Below are positions 17,800-55,315 of a stretch of 64,000 nt of DNA, one piece after another (the first letter of the stretch is position 1; each line of letters opens with the position of its first letter). Where the stretch lies: assembly GCF_001678475.1 (NCBI RefSeq), contig NZ_JTJR01000050.1:1-64000 (forward strand), read 5' to 3'. The notes under the pieces are model-generated. The model ran no database searches. It saw only the letters and a program-made list of their open reading frames with translations, and was not told where the DNA came from. Source of the stretch: Gallibacterium genomosp. 3. GTDB taxonomy: Bacteria > Pseudomonadota > Gammaproteobacteria > Enterobacterales > Pasteurellaceae. Position numbers and translations under genes: made by a program.

Positions 17800-17960
17800 C
17801 TTCATTTTATTCGCAAGCAAGCTTGCTCACCCTAACGGGCCGTTGCAAGCAACGTTCAAAAAGCTATCGCTTTTTGTCATTGCTCGTACAAAGAAAATGA
17901 AGCAAAAGACAACGCAAAGCGTTGAATGTTGCTGAAAGCAACAGCCTGAAGGCTGAGTGA
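17800..17960. repeat. Chain of short hairpins downstream of the Nudix gene
   Basis: Noncoding stretch in which almost every base lies in a small palindrome: 17817-17826 (GCAAGCTTGC), 17841-17854 (CGTTGC/GCAACG), 17857-17876 (CAAAAAGC/GCTTTTTG), 17910-17924 (CAACGC/GCGTTG), 17927-17943 (TGTTGCT/AGCAACA) and 17943-17954 (AGCC/GGCT). An outer pair, CTTCATTTT (17800-17808) with AAAATGAAG (17894-17902), encloses the first three. It is more GC-rich than the genes before it. It could be an intergenic repeat element or a structured RNA. Confidence 0.6.
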
Positions 17961-40164: not shown

Positions 40165-42147
40165 TTATGATGTAATTTTGTCTTTCTGTTTAAGATTGAT
40201 AAATAACATAATCAATAAAATCACAATACCGACAATATCAGAAATAAATTCAGGTGAAATTAATAAGACTGAACCAATTGCAAGAATAATGCGGAATACC
40301 ATATTGATATTATGTTTGAAATAGCCCTCTACTGCGGCAGATAGACCAATAACCCCTAAGATCGATGTCACACAAACAGAAATAATTTCGCTGATTGCCG
40401 GCAACGGGAATGAATTTGCTGTAATCGCTGAATTGTGAATATCAATCATCAACATACTTGGATTATAGACAAAGATAAATGGAATGATGAAGCCTGCTAA
40501 GGCTAAGCGTAATGATTGCCAACCTGTTTTCATCGGATTACCGCTGGCGATTCCAGCACCAGCGAAAGAGGCTAAAGCCACTGGTGGAGTAATGTTAGCG
40601 AAGATACCAAAATAGAAGACAAACATATGGCTTACTAAAAGTGGAATATTGAAATCCGCTAAAGCAGGCGCTGCCATAGTTGCTGTGATGATATATGCTG
40701 GAATGGATGGTAAGCCCATACCTAGCACAATGGAAGCAAGCATGGTTAAGATTAAGGTAAGAAGTAATGAACCCGCACCAAAAGTCACGATATAAGAAGT
40801 CATTACGGTACCAAAACTGGTGAGGTTAACGACACCGATAATAATACCTACTACCGCACAAGCCGCCATAACAGAAAGGGACTGTTTAGCGCCATCTTCA
40901 AGTGCCTCAATAATCTCTTTTACACCCATCTGAGTTTCCTTGCGGAACCAGCTCACAATAATCGTGATTAAAATAGTGTAAGCGGCTGCATAACCAACAG
41001 GAACAGATTCCATTAAGAATACAACGAGAGCCACAATCGGAATGAACATATGACCACGTTCTTTCATCACTAATTTAAGTTGTGGTAATTGATCTTTAGA
41101 GAGTCCTTTAAGGTTGTGTTTTCCTGCTCGGAAATGGACTTGCGCAATGACGCTAATGTAGTAGAGAAGAGCAGGTAACAGTGCTGCTAAGGCGATTGTA
41201 CTATATTTAACACCTGTTGTTTCAGCCATAATAAACGCACTGGCCCCCATAATTGGTGGTAATATTTGTCCACCAACAGAGGCGCTGGCTTCAACTGCAC
41301 CAGCAAAGTTTGGGTGATACCCAATTTTTTTCATTAATGGAATAGTAAATGCACCAGTACTTACTACATTGGCAACTGCCGCGCCATTAATACTTCCCAT
41401 AAAACCACTGGAGATAACAGCCACTTTTGCTGGCCCACCTTGGCGACTACCTGCGAGTGCAAGTGCGAGATCGTTAAATAATTTCCCCATTCCTGATTTG
41501 GCTAAGAATGCACCAAATAAGATAAATAAGAAAATAAAACTGACTGAAGCGCCAATGGCAGAAGAGTATAGTCCTTCAGTTTTTAAATAAAGTTGTCCAA
41601 AGATATCCCCAATATCGTAATAACGAGTTAATAAACGGTCGGGCATAAAATCCATGGAACTAACAAATGGATAGATTAAGAAGATTAATGCAAAAATAAT
41701 TAAGATATACCCAGTTATTCTGCGTGCAGCTTCAATCACAATTAACGTTGTAAGAATTGCGAAGATAATATCGGCTTGATTAGGAATCCCACCACGCGTT
41801 GTCATGAGTGCTTCATATTCGTAACAGAGATAGCCTGCGGTAACGAGTGCAACAATTCCTAGGATCCAGTCAAACCACATAATCCTACTTTTACTGTATT
41901 TCTTACTTACTGGATAAATTAAGAAAATAAGTAATGTACCGATACCAACGTGGAGCGCACGTTGTAATAATGTTGGCATCGGATAAAAAGTGATGTAGAG
42001 ATGAAAAAGGGAGTAGATAACCGCAACAAATGAGATGGCGTAATTTTGCCATTTAGATTGTACAGATTTAACTACCGATTCTTTGTCGTATTTTTCGAGA
42101 ATATCTTGATAATTCTTCTCTTGGTTAGTGTGTTCGAGGTTTGACAT
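40165..42147 (-). CDS. TRAP transporter fused 4TM/12TM permease (TAXI type)
   Basis: A 660-aa membrane protein combining the small (DctQ-like) and large (DctM-like) TRAP permease parts. The first about 150 residues hold four segments. The large part has the family blocks FAGAVEASASVGGQILPPIMGASAFIMAE, GMGLPSIPAYI and FYFGIFANITPPVALASFAGAGIASGNP. Such fusions work with TAXI binding proteins, one of which is the third gene of this operon. Its start overlaps the DUF1850 gene by 23 bases. The substrate may be a carboxylate or amino acid; unproven. Confidence 0.93.
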   Translation of the reverse strand: MSNLEHTNQEKNYQDILEKYDKESVVKSVQSKWQNYAISFVAVIYSLFHLYITFYPMPTLLQRALHVGIGTLLIFLIYPVSKKYSKSRIMWFDWILGIVALVTAGYLCYEYEALMTTRGGIPNQADIIFAILTTLIVIEAARRITGYILIIFALIFLIYPFVSSMDFMPDRLLTRYYDIGDIFGQLYLKTEGLYSSAIGASVSFIFLFILFGAFLAKSGMGKLFNDLALALAGSRQGGPAKVAVISSGFMGSINGAAVANVVSTGAFTIPLMKKIGYHPNFAGAVEASASVGGQILPPIMGASAFIMAETTGVKYSTIALAALLPALLYYISVIAQVHFRAGKHNLKGLSKDQLPQLKLVMKERGHMFIPIVALVVFLMESVPVGYAAAYTILITIIVSWFRKETQMGVKEIIEALEDGAKQSLSVMAACAVVGIIIGVVNLTSFGTVMTSYIVTFGAGSLLLTLILTMLASIVLGMGLPSIPAYIITATMAAPALADFNIPLLVSHMFVFYFGIFANITPPVALASFAGAGIASGNPMKTGWQSLRLALAGFIIPFIFVYNPSMLMIDIHNSAITANSFPLPAISEIISVCVTSILGVIGLSAAVEGYFKHNINMVFRIILAIGSVLLISPEFISDIVGIVILLIMLFINLKQKDKITS

Positions 42148-42610
42148 TGCATTTCACTCCTAATAAAAAAGATAGAATATTTTGTTTTATTGGAATAATT
42201 TTTATCTCGTTATAATCAGGGACGAGTTGATAAACAGGAAGAATAAAGTCGTCAGAAAATAGAACTCCTTGCATATTGGATGAAACAATCCAATTAATTC
42301 CTGGCAAAGTAATGTGTTTTTCAAAACCAACAAAACCCTCTGGTGCAGCAATGTTATTACCATCCGCTGGTGAACCAGCACCAAAGGTTTGCTGAAATAC
42401 TTTGTCTAAAATCAAGATATTACCTTGTAAAGTGTAATGTTCTTGCCATAACTGTTTTTCGACAGAGTGTTTCCACTGCAGTGTAAAGTTGTTAGTCGGT
42501 AAACGGCACGATTTATCATTAAATTTTAGATAAATCGTGTCGAGAGGGTAAGTTAAGATCGCTACTGCAACAATAATCAGAAATATAGCGATCTTAAAAC
42601 TTGTTTTCAT
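42125..42610 (-). CDS. DUF1850 accessory protein of the TRAP-TAXI transporter
   Basis: A 161-aa protein with one N-terminal membrane anchor (about 6-24) and an exported domain containing FTLQWKHSVEKQLWQEHY, the DUF1850 core. DUF1850 genes are commonly next to TAXI-type TRAP permeases. It sits between the binding-protein and permease genes with a 2-bp gap and a 23-base overlap, so it is surely part of the system, but its function is unknown. Confidence 0.85.
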   Translation of the reverse strand: MKTSFKIAIFLIIVAVAILTYPLDTIYLKFNDKSCRLPTNNFTLQWKHSVEKQLWQEHYTLQGNILILDKVFQQTFGAGSPADGNNIAAPEGFVGFEKHITLPGINWIVSSNMQGVLFSDDFILPVYQLVPDYNEIKIIPIKQNILSFLLGVKCNVKPRTH

Positions 42611-42612
42611 CG

Positions 42613-43641
42613 TTATTTTTTACTCATTTCGTCATAATAACGTTTTGCACCTGGATGCAATGGGGCAATTGAGCCTTTTTGTGCTTCTTCTAAAGTAATA
42701 TCTTTTGCTGCTTGGTGAGAAGCTTTCAATTTATCTAATCCTTCAAAGAATGTTTTTGTAAGCAGATAGACATCATCATCACTTAAATCGGAACGAACCA
42801 CGAGAGCGTTACGAATAGCGATAGTTTGAATATCTTCAGGATTGTTGTAAGTGCCAGCCGGAATAACCATTGAAGTGAAGTAAGGATATTGTTGCATAAT
42901 TTTTTCAGCACCTTCTTTAGGAATACTTACAAGTTGTAAATCAAAACCTTGTTGTAATTCCATTAATGAAGAGTTTGGTAAGCCACTGGTTAAGAATGCT
43001 GCATCAATACGTCCTGCTTTTAATGCGTCTACGGCTTCTGCATAACCTAAGTAATCAACAGTAATATCGTTATAAGTAATACCAAAACCGGCAAGTAATT
43101 TACGCGCGTTGACTTCTACGCCAGAGTTTTGTGCACCAGTTGCAACACGGTGTCCTTTTAAGTCGGCAATGGTTTTAATTCCTGTTTTTTTAGAAGTAAT
43201 AATTTGTACGAAGTTTGGATAAAGCCCTGCTAACTCACTGACAGTAGTGATTTTTTTATTTTCAAAGCTACCTAAACCGTTTACAGCATCACTCAATGCG
43301 TCACGCATTACAAATGCCATTTCAACCTTCTTACTATTAAGCAGGTTAATATTTTCTACTGAAGCTCCGGTGGTTTGGGTTTTAGAATTGGCTTTTAATT
43401 CAGTGGAGTAAACCTCTGCTAAAGTTGTACCAATGATGTTGTAAGGGCCTGATGCACCGCCAGTTGCAATAGTGACGAATTTGGAAGCAAGTTTTGGTGT
43501 ACTGTTAGCAGCTGGTGCAGCTTGTTCAGAATTATTAGCAGTAGTGTTTGCTGCAGGTTTTTCTTTTTCATCATTACAGCCAACAAGAACGACAGATGAA
43601 ACTAAAAGTGATGAAAGTAAGAGAGTTTTAAAGTTTGCCAT
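42613..43641 (-). CDS. TAXI-family TRAP solute-binding lipoprotein
   Basis: A 342-aa binding protein. The signal ends in lipobox LVGC, then a Ala/Asn-rich linker (residues 23-50) tethers the domain to the membrane. FVTIATGGASGPYNIIGTTLAEVY, NLLNSKKVEMAFVMRDALSDAV and ADLKGHRVATGAQNSGVEVNARKLL are typical TAXI blocks. First gene of a three-gene operon; a CRP-like site lies about 90 bp upstream, suggesting control by carbon status. Confidence 0.93.
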   Translation of the reverse strand: MANFKTLLLSSLLVSSVVLVGCNDEKEKPAANTTANNSEQAAPAANSTPKLASKFVTIATGGASGPYNIIGTTLAEVYSTELKANSKTQTTGASVENINLLNSKKVEMAFVMRDALSDAVNGLGSFENKKITTVSELAGLYPNFVQIITSKKTGIKTIADLKGHRVATGAQNSGVEVNARKLLAGFGITYNDITVDYLGYAEAVDALKAGRIDAAFLTSGLPNSSLMELQQGFDLQLVSIPKEGAEKIMQQYPYFTSMVIPAGTYNNPEDIQTIAIRNALVVRSDLSDDDVYLLTKTFFEGLDKLKASHQAAKDITLEEAQKGSIAPLHPGAKRYYDEMSKK

Positions 43642-43777: not shown

Positions 43778-44773
43778 TTAAAGTTTCTTAATTGATTGTC
43801 GCCAAATTAACTGTGGTTCAAGCATTAAAGTTTTGTATTCTTGTTGTGGCGATTTAATGCGTTGTAACAACGTTTCAACAGCGAGTTCCCCTAATTCTGC
43901 TTTAGGTTGATGGATAGTAGTGAGTGGTGGTGTTAAATATTGTGACAGCATAATATTGTCATAACCAATGACAGACAGATCCTCTGGAATACGTAATCCA
44001 TGTTGCCAAGCAACCTGGTAAACACCTACTGCAATTGTATCACTACACGCAAAAATGGCGGTTGGATGATCAGTACATTGTAATAATTTCTTCATACCTT
44101 CCACGCCACCTTCAAAGTCAAAATGACTTTCAATAATCCATTCAGGATGGATAGCTAAATTAGCATCTTGTAACGCTTTTTTATAACCTATGAGGCGGTT
44201 ATGAGCTAAGGATTTGTCTAATTTACCGGTAATAATTGCAATTTTTTGATGCCCCTGTTCAATTAAAGTTTTTGTAGCAAGGTACGCCCCTAACTCCGAA
44301 TTTTCATAGATTTGATCCGCATTTAAAGCTGTTGGCCACCAGTCCATAATCACCATAGGAAGTTGAACATTTAGCTGTTTAACAATGGAGTGGCGAGAGT
44401 CAGAATACATTAATAATAGACCGTCAACCTGTTTTTGAATTAAGATTTGAATATTTTGTAATAAACGAGCTTCATCGCCATCAGTACTGGAAATAATTAA
44501 ATTATATTGATGTTGATTGCAGTAATGTTCCACACCACTTACCACTTCTGCAAAGAAAGGGTTACTGGTGGCAGTAACTAACATTCCTAATGTTTTGGTT
44601 TCTTTAACTTTTAAACTACGGGCTACGGCAGAAGGGGTGTAATTTAGTTCATGGACAACTTTCATAATTTTTTCACGCATTTCATCACTAACATAACGAC
44701 TGTTATTAATCACATGAGAAACGGTAGATGTTGAAACTTTTGCAATCCTTGCAATATCTTTCATGGTTGCCAT
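43778..44773 (-). CDS. rbsR: LacI-family repressor, RbsR type
   Basis: A 331-aa repressor. The N-terminal helix-turn-helix ([36 protein letters not shown]) and the hinge [31 protein letters not shown] follow E. coli RbsR almost throughout, as do [31 protein letters not shown] and the ribose-pocket region. rbsK precedes it, as in the rbs operon, but no rbsDACB lies upstream. A matching operator sits before tctC (49716-49733), so it probably represses the whole tct-aldolase-rbsK-rbsR unit. Confidence 0.9.
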
Positions 44774-44808
44774 AAATTACCCCTTACTATACTGCTTATA
44801 GGTTAATT

Positions 44809-45732
44809 TTATTGAGCTGCTTGTAAAAAATCGAGTGTTTCTTCTCTTGTTGGAATGGAAGATTGTGCCCCGAAACGTGTAACACTAATCGCAGCAGCGG
44901 CTTGTGCAAATTGAATTGCTTCCTCAAGTGATTTTTGTTCGAGTAGTGCTGTCATCAATGCACCATTAAACGTATCGCCAGCGGCAGTAGTATCTTTAGC
45001 TTGGACGCAGAAACCGGGAATGATTTTTTGTAATTGGTTATGACTAATGAATACGCCCTTGGCGCCTAAGGTAATTAATACAATAGCTACGCCTTTTTGA
45101 TGGAAAACTGTTGCGGCTTGTGCTGCACTTTGTTCATCAACCACCTTAACCCCAGTTAATACTTCAGCTTCTGTTTCATTGGGAGTAATCATAGTGAGAT
45201 GAGAAAGTAATTCATCAGGCAATGGTTTTGCGGGTGCCGGATTTAAAATCGTATGTTTACCCGCCTGTTTGGCAATTTTAGTTGCGTGAATAATAGCCTC
45301 TAAAGGCGTTTCTAATTGCATTAATAGTGCATCAGAATTAATAATTTGCTGTTTAAATTTATCAACAATTTCAGGAGTAAGATGTGCATTAGCGCCCGCA
45401 GAAATCACGATACTGTTTTCGCCATTGCTCGCAACTTGAATCATTGCAATACCTGTGGTTTGTTGTGGAATAGTCGTGATTGTTTCTACATTGATACCTT
45501 GCTGTTGAAAGGAGTTTTTCATTTGCTGACCGATATCGTCACTACCAATGCAGGCAATAAAATTCACATTTGCACCTAAGCGAGCTACGGCTACTGCTTG
45601 ATTTGCACCTTTACCACCAAAAACAATATGGTAATTTTCTCCCGCAAGGGTTTCACCAGGTTGTGGAAAATGTGGAATATGAATAACATGGTCAGCATTA
45701 ATGCTACCTAAAATAGTAAGTTGCTTTGTCAT
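44809..45732 (-). CDS. rbsK: Ribokinase
   Basis: A PfkB-family kinase of 307 aa from the ATG at 45732, behind AAGGAACAATA; a longer upstream reading lacks such a site. It phosphorylates D-ribose to ribose 5-phosphate. ILGSINADHV, VFGGKGANQAVAVARLGANV and the catalytic base region TTAAGDTFNGALMTALLEQ match E. coli RbsK closely, including NPAPAKPLPDELL. It lies between an aldolase gene and rbsR instead of after ribose transporter genes. Confidence 0.92.
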   Translation of the reverse strand: MTKQLTILGSINADHVIHIPHFPQPGETLAGENYHIVFGGKGANQAVAVARLGANVNFIACIGSDDIGQQMKNSFQQQGINVETITTIPQQTTGIAMIQVASNGENSIVISAGANAHLTPEIVDKFKQQIINSDALLMQLETPLEAIIHATKIAKQAGKHTILNPAPAKPLPDELLSHLTMITPNETEAEVLTGVKVVDEQSAAQAATVFHQKGVAIVLITLGAKGVFISHNQLQKIIPGFCVQAKDTTAAGDTFNGALMTALLEQKSLEEAIQFAQAAAAISVTRFGAQSSIPTREETLDFLQAAQ

Positions 45733-45752
45733 TATTGTTCCTTCATTAGAGA

Positions 45753-45774
45753 AGGATGGGATATGCCCCATCCT
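45753..45774 (-). terminator. Hairpin between the aldolase gene and rbsK
   Basis: A perfect 8-bp GC-rich stem (45753-45760 with 45767-45774) lies just before the rbsK ribosome site. It has no strong U tract, so partial attenuation or RNA-processing is more likely than full stop. Confidence 0.5.
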
Positions 45775-45786
45775 AAATAATTGATA

Positions 45787-46716
45787 TTAAATAGTTGTAT
45801 TTTTAATTTTTTCACGGTAATCATCAGACGCTTGCATGATATGATGTAATAAATCTTCTACAGCCCAATATTTAATTAGGATATCGTCTGGAATAACACG
45901 AGAGTTATAGGATTGAAATATACCTAATTTTTTATGCATTAGTTTAGCAAAATTAGGATATCCAAAACTTTCAGCAGCTCCACAAATAGCTAAGAAATGT
46001 GCTAGTTCATGTACTAAAGGATGATTTATATGTTTATGTTTGTATAACCAGGCATAAAGATCCGGGTGAATATTGTTGAATACTCCAGAAAAACCTTCTG
46101 AACCAGCTTTCATTGCCTCAAATGCTATAGATGCATTTGCATTTACAATTTTAAGATTACTGTTTTTAGTTAAGTTCACTCTTCTTTTTACTGTTTCTAA
46201 ATCGCAAGAAACATCTTTTAATACCAACATATTATCGAATTGAGCGAAATAGCTAATTTCCTCATCTGTCAATAAGCGTCTGAATGGAGCAGGACATTCA
46301 TATAATCCTAATTTGATATTTTTGGGTAATGCTCGTATTAATTTTTCAAAATGTTGTTTTAATATAGAAGTTCCTTCATTTTTAATATCTAATCGATTAG
46401 TTATCAAAATTACAGCGTCAACCCCAGTTTGGTAAATAGCAGTTAATTCTTTCAATTGATCTTCAATATTATTACTAATATGTCCAGAAGCGACGACAGG
46501 AATTCTTCCATTTGTTTGTGATATAACAGTTTCTGTTATTTTTACTCTTTCCTCTAAAGAGAGATATTGTATTTCACTAGATTGGCAAGCAGCAAATAAA
46601 GTATTTGCTCCGTTATCAATATACCAATCGGTTAAACAACGTAAACTCTCATAATCAACTTCATTATTTTCTGTAAATGGTGTTAGCATTACAGGGATAA
46701 TACCTTGAATTTTCAT
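45787..46716 (-). CDS. DapA/NanA-superfamily aldolase or lyase
   Basis: A 309-aa class I aldolase-type TIM barrel. The opening GIIPVMLTPFTENNEVDYESLR is typical of the dihydrodipicolinate synthase / N-acetylneuraminate lyase superfamily. The Schiff-base lysine is in MLVLKDVSCD, and the Tyr in LGLYECPAPF. The usual GTTGE/GSTGE loop is replaced by ACQSSE, so the substrate differs from the standard enzymes; a 2-keto acid is expected. It is fourth gene after tctCBA and before rbsK. Confidence 0.85.
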   Translation of the reverse strand: MKIQGIIPVMLTPFTENNEVDYESLRCLTDWYIDNGANTLFAACQSSEIQYLSLEERVKITETVISQTNGRIPVVASGHISNNIEDQLKELTAIYQTGVDAVILITNRLDIKNEGTSILKQHFEKLIRALPKNIKLGLYECPAPFRRLLTDEEISYFAQFDNMLVLKDVSCDLETVKRRVNLTKNSNLKIVNANASIAFEAMKAGSEGFSGVFNNIHPDLYAWLYKHKHINHPLVHELAHFLAICGAAESFGYPNFAKLMHKKLGIFQSYNSRVIPDDILIKYWAVEDLLHHIMQASDDYREKIKNTTI

Positions 46717-46733
46717 CTTATTTCTCCATTGAA

Positions 46734-48236
46734 TTAATTTTTTTTATTAAAGTTTTTTATAATTCCATATATTTGCAGAATAACTACTAATGCAAATAAG
46801 AAAGAAAGGATTAATGAAACTGGCCTGTCAATGAAAGCTAGTAAATTTCCATCTGCTTTAGTTAATGAAGCAAGTAAATTTCGTTCTAGCATAGGTCCAA
46901 GAATCATACCTAGAATAATAGGGGAGATTGGATAAGCATTCTTTTGTAGAAAATAACCTATTATTCCCATAATAAGCATTACAATAATAGCTTCAATAGA
47001 ATTATTTATTGCAAAAGAGCCTATAATGCTAAAGATAATAATGATTGGATATAGAATATCTTTATTAATTTGAACAATTTTTTTAAGGAAATTCACAACA
47101 ATTAAAGCTAAAGGAATTAGAGCGATGTTAGCTATTAAAAATAGAATAAATACTGCATATAATTTATCTGGTTGAAATAAAAATAGTGATGGTCCAGGCT
47201 GCATATCTTTCATATATAGAACGCCAATAATAATAGCAGCGGCTGAATCTCCGGGTATACCAAATACAAGTGATGGAATCCAGCTACCAGCTAAACTTGC
47301 ATTATTACTACTTGAAGAGTCAATAATAGCGTCTTCTGAACCTTTACCATATAATTCAGATGTTTTAGATAATTTTTTTGAAACTGCATAAGAGATCCAT
47401 GCAGCTATATCTGCACCAGCACCAGGTAAAGCACCTATTAATGTTCCAATTACACTGCTTCTTAAAATGCTTCCTTTTCTTTTGTATAAGGTTTTACTTA
47501 AACCACTAAATATATTTAAGGATTTTGGTGCATTAAAATTCTCTTGATGAGAATCTTGAACTAATTTATATCTATTAGCATAGTATTCAATTGCTCCGGA
47601 TATGGCAAATAATCCTATCATTGCAGGAATAAAGCTAATACCTTCATAAAGAGATACAAATCCAAAAGTAAATCTTGCTTGTCCGGTAAACTCATCAAAG
47701 CCTATAGTTGAAATAATGATTCCAAAAAGTAAAGTAACTAAACTTTTTGTAATAAACTTTCCCGAAATAAGAGTCGCACAACTTAAGCCTAGTAAGGATA
47801 ACCACATATATTCAAAAGAGCTAAATTTCAGAGCAAATTTCGCTAAACTAGGAGCTGCCAAAGATAAAATTATTGTACCTATTATTCCGCCAATGACTGA
47901 GCTTAATAAACCAAGCCCTAATACTCTATTTATTTTTCCTGATTTAACAAGTAAATATGAGTCATCAACATATGCTGCTGATGCAGGTGTTCCTGGGATT
48001 CTTAATAAAGCTCCAGGTATATCACCAGCATAAATAGAAGATGCACCTACAGAAATCATTAATGCAAGTGCAGTGATTGGATCCATAAAAAAAGTAAATG
48101 GAACGAGTAATGCTACAGCCATTGTAGCTGTTAAACCTGGAATTGCCCCAACAAAGAGACCAAATAAACCAGCAGCTAATATCGCTAAGATTGCATTGAA
48201 GTTAATATATGAGATAGCTGATAAGATAATATCCAT
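46734..48236 (-). CDS. tctA: Tripartite tricarboxylate transporter, large permease TctA
   Basis: A 500-aa inner-membrane subunit with about twelve segments. The TctA signature GLFVGAIPGLTATMAVALLVPFTF is near residue 25, followed by YAGDIPGALLRIPGTPASAA; the repeated half is GALPGAGADIAAWISYAV and IPSLVFGIPGDSAAAIIIGVLY. AGGAGATTTT precedes the ATG. With TctB and TctC it forms a secondary importer for carboxylates. The ending overlaps no gene; the aldolase starts 17 bp later. Confidence 0.95.
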   Translation of the reverse strand: MDIILSAISYINFNAILAILAAGLFGLFVGAIPGLTATMAVALLVPFTFFMDPITALALMISVGASSIYAGDIPGALLRIPGTPASAAYVDDSYLLVKSGKINRVLGLGLLSSVIGGIIGTIILSLAAPSLAKFALKFSSFEYMWLSLLGLSCATLISGKFITKSLVTLLFGIIISTIGFDEFTGQARFTFGFVSLYEGISFIPAMIGLFAISGAIEYYANRYKLVQDSHQENFNAPKSLNIFSGLSKTLYKRKGSILRSSVIGTLIGALPGAGADIAAWISYAVSKKLSKTSELYGKGSEDAIIDSSSSNNASLAGSWIPSLVFGIPGDSAAAIIIGVLYMKDMQPGPSLFLFQPDKLYAVFILFLIANIALIPLALIVVNFLKKIVQINKDILYPIIIIFSIIGSFAINNSIEAIIVMLIMGIIGYFLQKNAYPISPIILGMILGPMLERNLLASLTKADGNLLAFIDRPVSLILSFLFALVVILQIYGIIKNFNKKN

Positions 48237-48244
48237 AAAATCTC

Positions 48245-48691
48245 CTACTCAAAGAATATTCCATTAGGTAAGGAAACAAGAAGTATTTTTGCAAATAAAA
48301 AATAAATGGAAAAAGATAAGAGAATTAGGAAAATAGTTGTAATAATTTTCCCATTTTTTATAAATGGGATAGTCAAACTAATTAATATAATACTGGTTGT
48401 TAATATAAACCCTAGAAAGTTAGATGCTAGTATATAGAAGATTATAGTTATAATTATTAAAGACCCACTAACAATATCTTTCTTTATATCAAATTTTTTG
48501 AATACATACTTTTTCTTTAGGTTGATTTCCATAAAGAAATCTATAAGAGAAAATATACACAAGATTCCTCCGATAATAGTAGGGTAAAATGCTGCTCCAT
48601 ATGAAGTGAAATCCCCGTAAGTGTAGTAGCTATATATAGAAATAATTAAACTAATTGTTAAAATCAATAAGGGAGTTAATATTCTGATCAT
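48245..48691 (-). CDS. tctB: Tripartite tricarboxylate transporter, small permease TctB
   Basis: A 148-aa protein with four membrane segments, including GAAFYPTIIGGILCIFSLIDFF and DIVSGSLIIITIIFYILASNFLGFIL, the usual TctB layout. The ribosome site is weak (AGAAAAGATTT) and sits right behind a strong hairpin, so less of it may be made than of TctC. The gap to tctA is 8 bp. Very AT-rich, as is normal for these small subunits. Confidence 0.88.
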   Translation of the reverse strand: MIRILTPLLILTISLIISIYSYYTYGDFTSYGAAFYPTIIGGILCIFSLIDFFMEINLKKKYVFKKFDIKKDIVSGSLIIITIIFYILASNFLGFILTTSIILISLTIPFIKNGKIITTIFLILLSFSIYFLFAKILLVSLPNGIFFE

Positions 48692-48698
48692 AAATCTT

Positions 48699-48727
48699 TT
48701 CTAGATCCCACTGAGTGAGATCTAGAA
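48699..48727 (-). terminator. Intercistronic hairpin between tctC and tctB
   Basis: A 9-bp perfect outer stem (48699-48707 with 48719-48727) continues into CAC/GTG. On the minus strand the tctB ATG follows after eight bases. It probably stabilises tctC mRNA and lowers expression of the membrane genes. Confidence 0.6.
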
Positions 48728-48739
48728 CCTCCTAAGTAT

Positions 48740-49684
48740 TTATTTAGATAATAATTCACCAAATTTTGAATCTTCATTCTGCATAAATTGTATTAATTCA
48801 TTTCCATATAATGGTCCAACATCAAAGCCTTGTTTATGAGAAAATTGCTGTAATTCACCGCTGGCATAAACTTTTTCCATGGCTTTTACTAGTTTTTCTT
48901 GTACATCTTTCGGCAATCCTTGAGGTCCTACTAACACATTCCAACCACCAAGAGACCAATTTGTTTTAGTTTCATTTTTAAATACAGGAATATCAGGATA
49001 TAGGGTATCTGTGTTATCAGATGTAATTGCTAGATGTCTAACAAGCCCAGCATCTGTCATACTTTTAGCTTCTCCTGGGGATGATGTTGTAAAATCAATC
49101 CCTCCAGAGATTAATTCTTGTAATGCCGTGCTAGCTCCTTGAGAAGGAATAAACTTCACAGCATTTTCTGGTTGATTTGTACTTTTTAAAATACCAAGTA
49201 AATTAAGGTGCCAAATAGAGTTTAATCCACTACCAGATGCTTTTAATTTGCCAGGATTATTTTTAATGTCATTGATGAGATCATTAATAGTGTTATAAGG
49301 TGAATCTTTTGCTACTTGTATTCCACCTGGAACTACGGCTAGGCGAACAATAGGGGTATAATCTTTATAACTTAAATCTGTCATTTTTTGATGTCTCATT
49401 AGAGCAATTTCAGCCGTTGCAACACCTAATGTATATCCATCTGGTTTAGCCCGTTTAATAGCATCATGTCCCACTACACCACTACCTCCTGTACGGTTAA
49501 TTACATTTACATTAACACCTAGTTCAGTTTGTAGTCCTTTAGCAACTAGACGTGCAATCGTATCAGTATTACCACCAGCTCCCCAAGGAACAATAATTGC
49601 AATTGGTTTTTCTGGATAAGCAGCTAAAGCTATTGAAGAAAATAAAGAACATAATAATAACGTTTGAGTAGTCAAATTTTTCAT
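48740..49684 (-). CDS. tctC: Tripartite tricarboxylate transporter binding protein TctC
   Basis: A 314-aa periplasmic binding protein with a signal peptide (1-21, ending IALA). AYPEKPIAIIVPWGAGGNTDTIARLVAKGLQ is the family opening, and GGSGVVGHDAIKRAKPDGYTLG and the DAGLVRHLAITSD region follow. TctC proteins (Bug family) bind carboxylates and sometimes amides or sugar acids. AGAGGTGATTT precedes the ATG. First gene of the tct-aldolase-rbsK-rbsR unit, with an RbsR-type operator 32 bp upstream. Confidence 0.95.
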   Translation of the reverse strand: MKNLTTQTLLLCSLFSSIALAAYPEKPIAIIVPWGAGGNTDTIARLVAKGLQTELGVNVNVINRTGGSGVVGHDAIKRAKPDGYTLGVATAEIALMRHQKMTDLSYKDYTPIVRLAVVPGGIQVAKDSPYNTINDLINDIKNNPGKLKASGSGLNSIWHLNLLGILKSTNQPENAVKFIPSQGASTALQELISGGIDFTTSSPGEAKSMTDAGLVRHLAITSDNTDTLYPDIPVFKNETKTNWSLGGWNVLVGPQGLPKDVQEKLVKAMEKVYASGELQQFSHKQGFDVGPLYGNELIQFMQNEDSKFGELLSK

Positions 49685-49715
49685 AAATCACCTCTAGCAA
49701 AAGTATAAAAGATAT

Positions 49716-49733
49716 TATCGAAACGTTTCGATA
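49716..49733. promoter_or_regulatory. RbsR-type operator
   Basis: TATCGAAACGTTTCGATA is an 18-bp perfect palindrome with the CGAAACGTTTCG core known for E. coli RbsR. It lies 32 bp before the tctC start, in the promoter or 5' untranslated region. Confidence 0.8.
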
Positions 49734-49782: not shown

Positions 49783-49798
49783 TGTGAAGCCGATCAAA
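49783..49798. promoter_or_regulatory. CRP-like site before tctC
   Basis: TGTGAAGCCGATCAAA matches TGTGA-N6-TCACA with one mismatch and lies upstream of the operator, as expected for activation. Confidence 0.55.
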
Positions 49799-50007: not shown

Positions 50008-50021
50008 AAAGGGGGTATATG

Positions 50022-50927
50022 ATGGGATTTTGTTCTGATTCAATCAAAGTATTACAAGTGATTAGTAAAACTGGTAGCTTTAGTGAAACAGCAAAAGTTT
50101 TACACCGTGTTCCATCTGCGATTGGCTATACAGCAAGAAAAATGGAAGAGGAATTGGGGGTAAAACTATTTGAGAGACGGAATGGGCATATTATATTAAC
50201 ACCAGTTGCAAATTATATTTTAGAGCAAGGTGATTGGATTTTACAAGGATTACAAGAATTACAAAGGAATGCTTTACGTTTACATGAAGGTGTAGAAAGC
50301 CAATTTAGGATTGCGTTAAATTATATTGTAAGCCACCAACCTATCCCTCAATTACTAGCTAATCTATTAGAGAAGTTCCCCGCAACAGAATTTTCTATTC
50401 GTACAGAAGTTTATAATGGCACATGGGATTCATTATATGAGGATCGTGCTGATTTTGTAATTGGTGCTCCCCAGAACCCGCCTTGGAATGATGGTAGTAT
50501 TTCTACTGAATATTTAGGAGATGTAGAATGGGTATTTTTAGTTTCACCTCATCATCCATTAGCAAAAGAAGAACAAGTTCTAAGATCTGCAAAATTACGT
50601 CAATTTCCATCCATTGTAGTACATGATTCATCAATTGCTTTACAGCAGAAAAAAACATGGGCATTAAAAGGACAAAAAATTATCTATGTGACAGACCTTA
50701 ATATGGTGCTATCAATGATTATTGATGGAATTGGTATAGGTTTTGTTCCTAGAGGATTTGCAGCATCAGCATTATCAGAAGGGAGCGTAATAGAAAAAAT
50801 AATTGCGGAGCATAAACAGCCGATAAGGGTTTATTATGCCTGGCAAAATCAAAGAAATAGTTTAATTACTAACTATTTATTAGATGTGTTGTGTACAGAT
50901 GAATATCGTACACAGTGGTTAATTTAA
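50022..50927 (+). CDS. LysR-family regulator, AllS-like
   Basis: A 301-aa LysR regulator. Two ATGs stand side by side (50019 and 50022); the second has better spacing from GGGGG. The N-terminal winged helix (SIKVLQVISKTGSFSETAKVLHRVPSAIGYTARKMEEELGVKLFERR) is followed by an effector domain whose blocks (NGTWDSLYEDRADFVIGAP, LGDVEWVFLVSPHHPLA, GIGIGFVPRGFA) resemble E. coli AllS, the activator of the allantoin allD operon. Its position at the head of the ylbF-fdrA-ylbE genes fits a local activator. Identity as AllS itself is not claimed. Confidence 0.85.
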   Translation: MGFCSDSIKVLQVISKTGSFSETAKVLHRVPSAIGYTARKMEEELGVKLFERRNGHIILTPVANYILEQGDWILQGLQELQRNALRLHEGVESQFRIALNYIVSHQPIPQLLANLLEKFPATEFSIRTEVYNGTWDSLYEDRADFVIGAPQNPPWNDGSISTEYLGDVEWVFLVSPHHPLAKEEQVLRSAKLRQFPSIVVHDSSIALQQKKTWALKGQKIIYVTDLNMVLSMIIDGIGIGFVPRGFAASALSEGSVIEKIIAEHKQPIRVYYAWQNQRNSLITNYLLDVLCTDEYRTQWLI

Positions 50928-50950
50928 TTCATTATCGAAAGGAGAAACAT

Positions 50951-51541
50951 ATGAATGAATTACTTTTTAAGGCAGCAGAAGAAGGGAATTGCTATCAGAT
51001 AAGGCAGTTATTATCTCAGGCTAATGTGGATGTTAATGTAAGAGATAAGGGAAAACGTACGCCTATTCTAGTTGCTGCACAAAATCGACAGTATGAGGCT
51101 ATTAGATTATTAGCTGAATATGGAGCTGATATTAATCTTCAAGATAATAAATGCTTTAATCCATTTATTTATGGTTGTATTCATAATGATTTATCACTTG
51201 TGAAGCTAATGGTGGAGTTAGGGTGTGACTTAACTTGCTTAACACGCTTTGGTGGAAATGGATTGACTCCTGCAGCAGAAAAAGGTCATGAGGATATTGT
51301 TCGATTTCTATTAGAAAATACGGATATTAATGTGAATTTAACTAATACTGTAGGTTGGACGGCATTAATTGAAGCTATTATTCTTAATGATGGTGGAGAG
51401 AAAATGCAAAGAATAGTTCGCTTGTTATTAGAACATGATGCAGATCCAACTATGACAGATGAATGGGGTGTATCTCCATTAGAATTAGCATGTCGCAAAG
51501 GTTATCATGAAATAGCCTCTATTATTAAAGAATATCTTTAA
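50951..51541 (+). CDS. Ankyrin-repeat protein in the carbamoyl-transfer cluster
   Basis: A 196-aa protein from the ATG at 50951, behind AAAGGAGAAACAT. It has about five ankyrin repeats, for example RDKGKRTPILVAAQNRQYEAIRLLAEYGADINLQD and TNTVGWTALIEAIILNDG. There is no signal peptide, so it is cytoplasmic. Ankyrin repeats bind proteins; here it could hold the transcarbamylase subunits or act with the regulator. ylbF follows 13 bp later, so it belongs to the operon. No enzyme motif is visible. Confidence 0.85.
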   Translation: MNELLFKAAEEGNCYQIRQLLSQANVDVNVRDKGKRTPILVAAQNRQYEAIRLLAEYGADINLQDNKCFNPFIYGCIHNDLSLVKLMVELGCDLTCLTRFGGNGLTPAAEKGHEDIVRFLLENTDINVNLTNTVGWTALIEAIILNDGGEKMQRIVRLLLEHDADPTMTDEWGVSPLELACRKGYHEIASIIKEYL

Positions 51542-51554
51542 GAGGAGGCGAAAT

Positions 51555-52364
51555 ATGCAACAAGTAACGGTAGTTAGTATTGATAGTAAACTTGAGCCAG
51601 ATTATACGTTACTGATTGCAAGACAATTTAATATTCTTTCTAGGCATCAGCACGTTTTAAATTTACAACTATTTAATAAAAAAGTGGTTGCATTAGTTGA
51701 ATCGTCAGTGCCTTATGGGCCACGCCAATTACGTTTATTGCATAATATTCCTAAAACTGATGAATTTCTATTTTCTACGACTCCGCTAGAAAAATTTTCT
51801 TGCGATATAGAATTTTCATTAAATCCACTGAATTTAGAATTATTGGAACTATCTTGGCAAGTTCTCATTCGTGAACAGAGAGTACCAGTAGATAGGCTGC
51901 AGATAATAACTCAACAGTATTTACGAATAGGAATAGCGAATTTGTTAGATGCATTGGCCACAAGAAGCTCGTTATATAAAGAAGTTAGTAATTTACTAGG
52001 ATTAGGTTTTGGTTTGACACCAAGTGGTGATGATTTCTTGTGTGGTTTATTAATTGCATTATGTTTGCCACAAAGTCCATTTCATTCTCAAAGAAAGAAC
52101 TTAGTTCAAGCTATCCTAGCAAATATACAACAAACAAACCCTATTTCTGTAGGATTTCTAAAAGATGCTTGCTTATCTCAAGTAAGCCAACCAGTTCAGC
52201 TATTTATCCATAATTTATTAAGTCCATTTTCTAGTCCTGCTGTTATACAAGGAGTCGTTAAGTTAGGACATAGAAGTGGCTATGATTTATTAAGTGGATT
52301 ATTAGCTGGTTTCCCTCACTTAACTACAAAGAGAGTATATTTATGCCCTTATATAGTCGATTAA
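51555..52364 (+). CDS. ylbF: DUF2877 protein (YlbF/AllH-like)
   Basis: A 269-aa protein of the DUF2877 family, identified by GLGFGLTPSGDDFLCGLL at about residues 149-166. In E. coli the family member lies with fdrA and ylbE in the allantoin region and, as I recall the literature, is a component of oxamate carbamoyltransferase (AllH). AAGAGGAGGCGAAAT precedes the ATG. The end overlaps fdrA by 22 bases. Cytoplasmic. Confidence 0.85.
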   Translation: MQQVTVVSIDSKLEPDYTLLIARQFNILSRHQHVLNLQLFNKKVVALVESSVPYGPRQLRLLHNIPKTDEFLFSTTPLEKFSCDIEFSLNPLNLELLELSWQVLIREQRVPVDRLQIITQQYLRIGIANLLDALATRSSLYKEVSNLLGLGFGLTPSGDDFLCGLLIALCLPQSPFHSQRKNLVQAILANIQQTNPISVGFLKDACLSQVSQPVQLFIHNLLSPFSSPAVIQGVVKLGHRSGYDLLSGLLAGFPHLTTKRVYLCPYIVD

Positions 52365-53890
52365 AAACAAATACTTATATTGACTCAGTAACATTAATGG
52401 CTATTTCCACTGCTGTGAATCAGCTCAATGGTGTTATTCAAGCCCAAGTTGCAATGGGTAGCCCTATGAATAAAGCTGTATTAACTGAAGCAGGTTTATT
52501 AACTAGTGAATTAAGTCATGCAACAATATCTGATTTAATGATTGCGGTAATCCTGGAAGATAGCATTGATGTAGATACAATATTTGCACAAATTGATGAA
52601 TTACTAATACGGAAACCTATTCGCGATCAAAAGGATTGTGAAGAAGTCTTTCATACAATTAGTGCTGCCGCAGAGAAACATCCAGATAGTAATTTAGTTA
52701 TTGTGTCTGTAAATGGTACTTATGCCACTAGAGAAGCAGAAAAAGCATTAAGGCTAAATAAACATGTTATGTTATTTTCTGATAATGTTTCTATTGAAGA
52801 AGAACTATCTTTAAAACAATTAGCTCATGATAAAGAACTTTTAATGATGGGACCAGATTGCGGAACAGCTATCATTAATGGAGTAGGTTTGGGCTTTGCG
52901 AATAAAGTACGTCAAGGCAATATTGGTATTGTTGCTGCGTCAGGGACAGGAGCTCAAGAAATATCAGTAAGAATTCATGAGTTTGGTGGGGGCGTTTCCC
53001 AATTAATCGGAACAGGTGGTCGAGATCTCTCCGAGGATATTGGCGGAATAATGATGCTAGATGGTTTAAAATTACTTGCTGAAGATCCCCATACATCAGT
53101 TATTGTAATTGTTTCTAAACCACCAGCACCATCAGTTGCAGAAAAAATTCTAACTACTTGCCAACAAATAAGCAAACCAATTTTTATTTGGTTTTTAGGT
53201 TATCAAAGTCAACAAACTATATATCCAAATATTGAAATATTTTCTCATAGTAAACCAACAGCTATGAAAGCAGTAATTGCATCGGGTATTTCAGAAGAAA
53301 GTATTGATAAACATGCTCTTAACTGGCCATTAATAGCAGAAGTAAGGAAAAAACTATCACCAGAACAAAAATATATTAGAGGGCTATTTTGTGGTGGTAC
53401 CTTGTGTGATGAAGCATTATTTTCTGCATTAGAAAAGCATGGTGAGGTTTATTCAAATATTCACCCAAATCCACTTTATAAGATATCTGCAAAAGATATA
53501 TCAAAAGGTCATACATTTATTGATTTTGGTGATGATGAGTTTACACAGGGTAAGGCTCATCCAATGATTGATCCTAGCTATCGTATAGAGCGTATCTTAC
53601 AAGAAGGTAGAGATCCTGAGGTTGGTGTTCTATTACTAGATTTTGTAGTTGGTTTCGGCGCCAATTCTGATCCAGTTAGTGAAACATTGAAAGCTTTAGT
53701 TCAAGTGAAGCAAGAAGCGCAATCTGTAGGGCGACATTTAGAGATTTTGGCGTATGTTCTAGGTACAGATTTAGATTGTCCTACTGTAAATAGTCAGGTA
53801 GAGCTTTTAGAACAGGCTGGTATAACTATTGCCTCTAGTTCAACTAATGCAGGGTTGTTAGCTAGAGAATTTGTCGTGAAAGGAGAATAG
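52343..53890 (+). CDS. fdrA: FdrA family acyl-CoA synthetase-like protein (AllF-like)
   Basis: A 515-aa protein matching E. coli FdrA: DSVTLMAISTAVNQLNGV, AQVAMGSPMNKAVL, FSDNVSIEEELSLKQLAHDKELLMMGPDCGTAIINGVGLGFAN and GIVAASGTGAQEISVRI. It has two Rossmann-like domains of succinyl-CoA-synthetase type, but the phosphohistidine motif of that enzyme is not obvious. With YlbE and YlbF it is thought to transfer a carbamoyl group from oxalurate to phosphate. It ends earlier than E. coli FdrA, whose tail segment is here the N-terminus of YlbE. GAGAG precedes the ATG. Confidence 0.9.
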   Translation: MPLYSRLKTNTYIDSVTLMAISTAVNQLNGVIQAQVAMGSPMNKAVLTEAGLLTSELSHATISDLMIAVILEDSIDVDTIFAQIDELLIRKPIRDQKDCEEVFHTISAAAEKHPDSNLVIVSVNGTYATREAEKALRLNKHVMLFSDNVSIEEELSLKQLAHDKELLMMGPDCGTAIINGVGLGFANKVRQGNIGIVAASGTGAQEISVRIHEFGGGVSQLIGTGGRDLSEDIGGIMMLDGLKLLAEDPHTSVIVIVSKPPAPSVAEKILTTCQQISKPIFIWFLGYQSQQTIYPNIEIFSHSKPTAMKAVIASGISEESIDKHALNWPLIAEVRKKLSPEQKYIRGLFCGGTLCDEALFSALEKHGEVYSNIHPNPLYKISAKDISKGHTFIDFGDDEFTQGKAHPMIDPSYRIERILQEGRDPEVGVLLLDFVVGFGANSDPVSETLKALVQVKQEAQSVGRHLEILAYVLGTDLDCPTVNSQVELLEQAGITIASSSTNAGLLAREFVVKGE

Positions 53891-53893
53891 AGT

Positions 53894-55315
53894 ATGACTC
53901 ATTTATTTGAACAACCTTTAAGTATTATTAATGTTGGGTTACGCCAATTTGCAGAAGATCTAGTTAGTCAGCAAGTTGAAGTGTGTCAATTAGATTGGAA
54001 ACCAGCTGGTAACGGGAATGCAGCATTAATTGAAGCATTAAGTTATTTAGAACAGGTCGAAATTACAGAAAAAATTGAGCAAGCAAACCAAGAAGCATTC
54101 CAACGAATTACCCAAGCACAACCTATATTAACGGGGTATGGACAAGCAAAAGATGTTATTCCAGGCATGAAAGAGAAAATGTTATTACATGCTGGACCAC
54201 CTATTGATTGGGATAGAATGAATGGACCAATGAAAGGAGCAATCACTGGTGCTATTGTATTTGAAGGGTGGGCTAGAAACCTACAAGAGGCTGAAGAATT
54301 AGCTGCAAGTGGTGAGATTATTTTTTCACCTTGTCATGAACACCAAGCAGTTGGCTCAATGACAGGAATAACCAGCCCTTCTATGTATGTTCATATTGTA
54401 GAAAATAAGACTCACGGCAATATCGCTTTTACTAATTTATCTGAACAATTAGCGAAAATATTAAGAATGGGGGCTAATGATAAAAGCGTGATTGATCGTT
54501 TAAATTGGATGAGAGATGTTTTTGGGCCTATGCTTGCTCAGGCGATGTCTTATTGTGAGGAAGGGATTGATTTACGTTTAATGCTTTCACAAGCACTTCA
54601 TATGGGGGATGAATGTCATAATCGTAATGTGGCAGGTACGGTATTACTGATTCAAAAGCTAACACCTTATATTTTAGAAACAGATTTTAGTAATAAAGAT
54701 AAGCAAGATGTATTTAAATTTGTTGCTTCATCGGATTATTTTTCTGGACCAACTTGGATGGTTTGTTGTAAGGCTGCTTTAGATGCAGCGCAAGGTATTC
54801 CGTATTCTACCGTTCTTACGACTATGGCAAGAAATGGTACAGATTTCGGTATTAGAGTTTCTGGGTTACCAAATCAGTGGTTTACTGGACCAGCACAACA
54901 AGTTATAGGACCTATGTTTGCTGGCTATAAACCAGAAGATTCTGGGCTAGATGTAGGAGATTCAGCAATTACAGAAACTTATGGAATTGGCGGTTTTGCT
55001 ATGGCTGCTGCACCTGCAATTGTTTCCTTAGTTGGTGGTACAGTAAGTGATGCCATAAATTACAGTAAAACAATGAATCAAATTACTGTAGGAAATAATC
55101 CTAATATTACTATTCCTGCATTAAATTTTATGGGCATACCGACAGGGATTGATATTCGTAAGGTTATTGAAAGTAATATCTTGCCAGTTATTAATACTGC
55201 TATTGCACATAAAGAGGCTGGTATTGGAATGATTGGCGCAGGGATTGTCAACCCACCAATAGAAGCCTTTAATAAAGCAATATTGGCTTTTACTGATAAA
55301 TATGCAAAAAGATAA
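53894..55315 (+). CDS. ylbE: DUF1116 protein (YlbE/AllG-like)
   Basis: A 473-aa protein of DUF1116. Characteristic blocks are VIPGMKEKMLLHAGPPIDWDRMNGPMKGAITGAIVFEGWA, LHMGDECHNRNVAGTVLL and VARNGTDFGIRVSGL-like MARNGTDFGIRVSG. It is partner of FdrA, 3 bp downstream with its own AAAGGAGAATAGAGT site. It begins with SIINVGLRQFAEDL, a segment that closes FdrA in E. coli, so the domain border between the two proteins has moved. Cytoplasmic transcarbamylase subunit (inferred). Confidence 0.9.
   Translation: MTHLFEQPLSIINVGLRQFAEDLVSQQVEVCQLDWKPAGNGNAALIEALSYLEQVEITEKIEQANQEAFQRITQAQPILTGYGQAKDVIPGMKEKMLLHAGPPIDWDRMNGPMKGAITGAIVFEGWARNLQEAEELAASGEIIFSPCHEHQAVGSMTGITSPSMYVHIVENKTHGNIAFTNLSEQLAKILRMGANDKSVIDRLNWMRDVFGPMLAQAMSYCEEGIDLRLMLSQALHMGDECHNRNVAGTVLLIQKLTPYILETDFSNKDKQDVFKFVASSDYFSGPTWMVCCKAALDAAQGIPYSTVLTTMARNGTDFGIRVSGLPNQWFTGPAQQVIGPMFAGYKPEDSGLDVGDSAITETYGIGGFAMAAAPAIVSLVGGTVSDAINYSKTMNQITVGNNPNITIPALNFMGIPTGIDIRKVIESNILPVINTAIAHKEAGIGMIGAGIVNPPIEAFNKAILAFTDKYAKR

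Follow-up and report, generated by a model that had tools for sequence, protein, structure and literature searches.

In-place exchange of rbsDACB for tctCBA and an aldolase between the ribose operator and rbsKR in Pasteurellaceae

We analyzed a 64,000-nucleotide stretch of Gallibacterium genomosp. 3 (contig NZ_JTJR01000050.1, positions 1 to 64,000; hereafter the window), in which ribose-type kinase and repressor genes share a unit with a predicted carboxylate importer and an aldolase. The unit comprised six genes on the minus strand: tctC (48740-49684; PF03401, E=1.7e-40), tctB (48245-48691; PF07331, E=6e-14), and tctA (46734-48236; PF01970, E=2.2e-130), encoding the periplasmic binding protein and the small and large membrane subunits of a tripartite tricarboxylate transporter (TTT); a gene for a pyruvate aldolase of the Schiff-base type (class I) from a DHDPS/NAL subfamily that is so far uncharacterised (45787-46716; DHDPS PF00701, E=1.9e-28); rbsK, encoding ribokinase (44809-45732; PfkB PF00294); and rbsR, encoding a LacI-family ribose repressor (43778-44773; LacI PF00356). 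The intergenic gaps were 8-54 bp, and TctC, TctB, and TctA together made up the full subunit set of a TTT system in Pfam. All six genes of the single unit described in the first-pass annotation were present, with the families as named there (Pfam and NCBIfam).

RbsK scored 477.6 bits with PRK11142, above the NCBIfam ribokinase cut-off of 341 bits, which bears out its reading as a true ribokinase. Its start at 45732 agreed with those of known ribokinases, while the mechanical open reading frame began 39 bp further upstream. For RbsR, the top model was NCBIfam RbsR, yet the score was under the equivalog cut-off (437.6 vs 531 bits), and the closest PDB entry was a ribose operon repressor. As the equivalog cut-off was not reached, orthology was assigned from 91% identity and synteny with rbsR of the congeneric genome G002. 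Neither rbsD nor rbsACB (ribose ABC transporter) was present at the locus, as had been noted from the DNA alone. No RbsB above the family cut-off was found in the 2.45-Mb genome, where a congeneric RbsB had its best hit at 34% identity.

The perfect RbsR-type palindrome reported earlier ahead of tctC was located at 49716-49733 (TATCGAAACGTTTCGATA), 31 bp before the gene, and is a predicted RbsR operator; its core (CGAAACGTTTCG) occurred once in the whole genome. A predicted CRP-like site (TGTGAAGCCGATCAAA on the plus strand, 49783-49798) was found upstream of the operator. We compared 15 operons, five with tctCBA-aldolase (tct type) and ten with rbsDACB (rbs type); the 16-bp palindrome ATCGAAACGTTTCGAT was unchanged ahead of all 15, and a CRP-like block (TTTGATC..CTTCACA) was kept in front of 15 operons of both types. 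The operator was found in all loci of close aldolase relatives with rbsR and in none of those without it.

Two other genomes of the genus (G002 and G001) carried rbsDACBKR of the ordinary type. G002 shared both flanks of the window unit, with a LysR/ankyrin/oxamate carbamoyltransferase cluster on one side and TAXI-type TRAP transporter genes on the other, and held rbsDACB in the position occupied by tctCBA-aldolase in the window. When the window was aligned with the G002 locus by blastn, identity was about 80% along the flank to the operator; similarity ended at 49717 and returned at 45708, with the renewed alignment beginning at the start of rbsK. The closest pair was formed by the sister species G001 (rbsDACBKR) and G003 (tctCBA-aldolase-rbsKR), whose DNA was 93% identical as far as the operator's end, showed no similarity in the block, and then matched at 60 of 60 bases just ahead of rbsK and at 95% through rbsKR. 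Their RbsR proteins were 99.1% identical (3 of 331 residues differed) and their RbsK proteins 96% identical. Direct comparison therefore shows a block swap between the operator and rbsKR, which is what the idea of a ribose regulon rebuilt around an importer and an aldolase had anticipated: the body of the rbs operon (45733-49716, minus strand) is exchanged in place, rbsDACB for tctCBA-aldolase, while the CRP-like site, operator, rbsK, and rbsR stayed.

The swap junctions coincided with the operator on one side and with the DNA immediately ahead of rbsK on the other, with the same break points in G001/G003 and in the pair G042/G083. In the window, the gap between the aldolase gene and rbsK contained a predicted hairpin (GGATGGG-N6-CCCATCC, 45754-45773, minus strand; RNA fold, z -2.3), and the junction in G001/G003 was marked by another hairpin. 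DNA-uptake sequences did not mark the window junctions.

The exchange is recurrent and occurred in different genera. Same-locus exchange with intact flanks was observed in G002/G000, G001/G003, G042/G083, and G038/G064, the last two pairs showing synteny of both flanks in two further genera (G083 is Pasteurella langaaensis and G064 is Lonepinella koalarum). Actinobacillus sp. GY-402 carried a tct-type operon whose left flank was that of G042/G083. Comparison across Pasteurellaceae, as had been proposed as a check, showed that the tctCBA-aldolase-rbsKR linkage and the operator were kept in five genomes of at least three genera, and RbsB was absent from all five. G026 and G039 carried tctCBA-aldolase at a different site, without rbsR, and retained a complete rbs operon. 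An assembly artefact was ruled out, as several genomes shared the arrangement, the chromosome record of Actinobacillus sp. GY-402 among them. In Lonepinella koalarum, a MazE/PemK-type toxin-antitoxin pair was located between rbsK and rbsR (L049:11655-12272).

The tree of RbsK and RbsR required five switches between the two types, four of them forced by well-supported branches, and it rejected a single origin of the tct-type operons (approximately unbiased test, p 3e-44). With the cassette tree alone, a single clade uniting the five tct-rbsKR cassettes was not rejected (p 0.10). As close aldolase orthologs were found only in 6 of about 91 genomes of the family, the rbs type is probably ancestral. 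The locus exemplifies how, in nature and repeatedly, the body of an operon is exchanged beneath an unchanged switch. It resembles mosaic operons formed by in situ gene displacement in that genes were replaced inside an operon at a fixed site, and differs from them in that a four-gene block was replaced by that of a different pathway, repeatedly and with the repressor unchanged. Compared with rbsDACBKR of Pasteurellaceae and E. coli, the RbsR operator, CRP-like site, rbsK, rbsR, end gene order, and chromosomal site are alike, while the window has a TTT importer and an aldolase instead of rbsDACB.

The closest folds of the aldolase were DapA and NanA (model predicted local distance difference test score, 94.8). 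A TIM barrel with the catalytic Tyr and the Schiff-base Lys places it among class I pyruvate aldolases of the DHDPS/NAL type; the catalytic residues Y139 and K167 (Y137 and K165, the Schiff-base Lys, in NanA) were present in 91 of 91 members. The motifs CQSSE, YECPxP, KDxxC, and NAN distinguished it from NanA, G189-Y190 of NanA being replaced by A-N within the conserved NAN motif. Its identity as dapA or nanA was rejected, as both model scores were far below the cut-offs (88.7 vs 206 bits and 39.5 vs 382 bits, respectively). Among distant aldolase loci, a ribokinase-like kinase was directly adjacent in 30 of 79, and the accompanying transporters were of the acid-capable TTT, TRAP, and MFS types and of the ABC type.

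In G026, G039, Vibrio, Phytobacter, and E. coli, tctCBA-aldolase was paired with a fusion of a DeoR helix-turn-helix (HTH) and a ribokinase-like kinase. As these relatives without rbsR carry the fusion, RbsK and RbsR appear to stand in for a cognate kinase-regulator, and mainly from this replacement and the adjacent kinases we infer that the kinase is a pathway enzyme whose substrate is the product of the aldolase. The E. coli version (NZ_CP019455.1, L181:6743-11915), which is uncharacterised, lies between araC and yabI in the order kinase-aldolase-tct; it shares with the window a homologous aldolase (54%), TctC (61%), and TctA (70%) and a ribokinase-type kinase, and differs in gene order, in the fusion of its kinase to a DeoR HTH, and in lacking RbsR. 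It matched 582 of 5,426 complete E. coli genomes, 572 of them (about 10%) over most of its length, and the carriers included O25:H4 strains. In K-12 (strain MG1655), araC adjoins yabI with nothing in between. As the homologous cassette is present in hundreds of E. coli genomes but not in K-12, a clean laboratory host exists. No description of a tct-aldolase-ribokinase set was found in the open literature.

We therefore favor, with moderate confidence, a scheme in which importer, aldolase, and kinase act in sequence under RbsR, whatever the acid. Without substrate, RbsR would occupy 49716-49733 and the operon would be silent. TctC would capture a sugar acid from outside the cell for import by TctBA; this acid is probably a 2-keto-3-deoxy (ulosonic) acid in cyclic form. 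Cleavage by the Schiff-base aldolase would release pyruvate together with a pentose. Binding of this pentose to RbsR would lift repression, and RbsK would phosphorylate the sugar for entry into the pentose phosphate pathway. The earlier proposal of an imported, cleaved, and phosphorylated acid is supported in this form as an inference, while its carboxylated ribose is not required, and the enzyme class is better matched by an acid of the 2-keto-3-deoxy-octonate type that yields a pentose. The scheme shares the logic of acid importer, class I aldolase, and sugar kinase with sialic acid catabolism, including the aldolase superfamily; in contrast, the unit has a ribokinase for the N-acetylmannosamine (ManNAc) kinase, does not conserve the NanA residues, and has no epimerase or deaminase. 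Because the specificity of the repressor and kinase is known, the substrate is constrained to a source of a ribose-like pentose, and this makes the aldolase family testable. Of two sister species, one would thereby use a near-identical repressor and kinase for ribose uptake and the other for an acid-aldolase pathway.

The neighbors of related aldolases bear on the acid. Genes for L-fucose isomerase or fucose-isomerase-C-like proteins adjoined them at loci L050, L051, L052, L106, and L122, FGGY kinases and BNR_2 sialidase-like genes were also neighbors, and a YhcH/YiaL gene stood beside one on a Salmonella plasmid. YhcH of E. coli opens cyclic N-acetylneuraminic acid (Neu5Ac) and ketodeoxynononic acid (KDN) for the aldolase (PMC8141875). 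Partners resembling sialidase and YhcH point to an ulosonic acid in cyclic form, and a pentose-type kinase or fucose isomerase points to an arabinose-type five-carbon product. A natural acid fitting both is 3-deoxy-D-manno-octulosonic acid (Kdo), which would yield pyruvate and D-arabinose, followed by D-arabinose 5-phosphate and, through KdsD, ribulose 5-phosphate; KdsD is encoded in the genome. Kdo is the leading single candidate, at a probability of about one third, with a ribose-yielding acid as the main alternative. The corresponding reaction would be that of KDO aldolase (EC 4.1.2.23), which is described biochemically; no gene named for this enzyme was found in the open literature. It is conceivable, if on balance doubtful, that the family comprises a Kdo aldolase in a Kdo salvage cassette (TctCBA, aldolase, and pentose kinase) spread across Proteobacteria, with about one in ten complete E. 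coli genomes among the carriers, for which Pasteurellaceae repeatedly captured the rbs repressor and kinase as sensor and kinase. Two further loci were noted. A conjugative Klebsiella plasmid carried a unit flanked by insertion sequence elements (L180:2707-10608) with an FGGY kinase, a fucose-isomerase-C-like protein scoring slightly under the Pfam cut-off, the aldolase, a BNR_2 sialidase-like protein, an MFS transporter, and a LacI regulator. In a Blautia locus (L131:3177-11871), possibly related to the rhamnosyl-Kdo of pectin, an alpha-L-rhamnosidase adjoined an ABC importer and a pair of genes of the DHDPS family.

Several points weigh against the proposed scheme and against Kdo in particular. 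E. coli ribokinase acts on D-arabinose with a kcat two orders lower and a KM three orders higher than on ribose (PMC9604405). The tct-type RbsK proteins retained all ribose-contact residues inspected, including N14 and A98. The poor use of D-arabinose and the intact pocket favor a ribose-like product and disfavor Kdo. In E. coli RbsK, D-arabinose activity rises when A98 is replaced; a change at this position was not supported here, as Ala was kept in all aldolase-linked kinases. Among wider relatives of the aldolase (45-56% identity), the neighboring genes varied, with 2-hydroxyacid dehydrogenases, shikimate dehydrogenase, and a hydratase among them, so a single substrate for the whole family is not required. 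No published substrate test for such cassettes was found in the literature.

These points lead to the strongest rival, in which the aldolase yields D-ribose, or another sugar that RbsR and RbsK can use in their native, unaltered form. The precursor would be a C8 keto acid of ribose configuration or some further ribose conjugate, so far not known from natural sources. This rival would explain why both proteins were nearly unchanged over the swap, why no residue distinguished tct-type from rbs-type RbsR or RbsK, and why every ribose contact was retained; however, we know of no abundant natural acid that splits into pyruvate and D-ribose, and the L-fucose isomerase partners in relatives do not, as far as is known, match ribose, so we regard it as unlikely, if a serious contender. 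The intact pocket would also suit regulatory hitch-hiking, in which tctCBA-aldolase borrows the RbsR switch, RbsK does not act on what the aldolase yields, and rbsKR is kept solely for salvage of nucleoside ribose that arises intracellularly or enters via a sugar ABC transporter on contig C40. As identical boundaries recur in several genera, and as cassettes without rbsKR carry their own ribokinase-like kinase, implying that the pathway needs one, we consider this improbable.

An ordinary DapA or NanA copy in a unit for lysine synthesis or sialic acid use would account for the DHDPS family fold. It is very improbable given the model scores above, the separate DHDPS-family gene on contig C19 (presumably the housekeeping dapA), and the absence of ManNAc kinase and epimerase from the unit. 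Nothing was found in favor of unrelated genes standing together by chance with a full rbs operon elsewhere, the outcome that the first-pass annotation had set as its refutation: the genome has no RbsB ortholog, the linkage is conserved, and a chance mix is rejected as far as sequence allows, with almost no probability left to it.

The flanks of the unit contained further clusters. The TAXI-type TRAP transporter genes (solute receptor, DUF1850 protein, and fused permease; 40165-43641) lie immediately downstream of rbsR, a position conserved in G002 and G003. On the other side, 50019-55315 contained the oxamate carbamoyltransferase cluster (AllG, AllH, and FdrA-like) with an ankyrin-repeat protein and a LysR regulator closest to PunR/AllS. 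At 17801-17885, the window matched the Rfam family AaHKsRNA22, an Aggregatibacter small RNA, with 43.7 bits.

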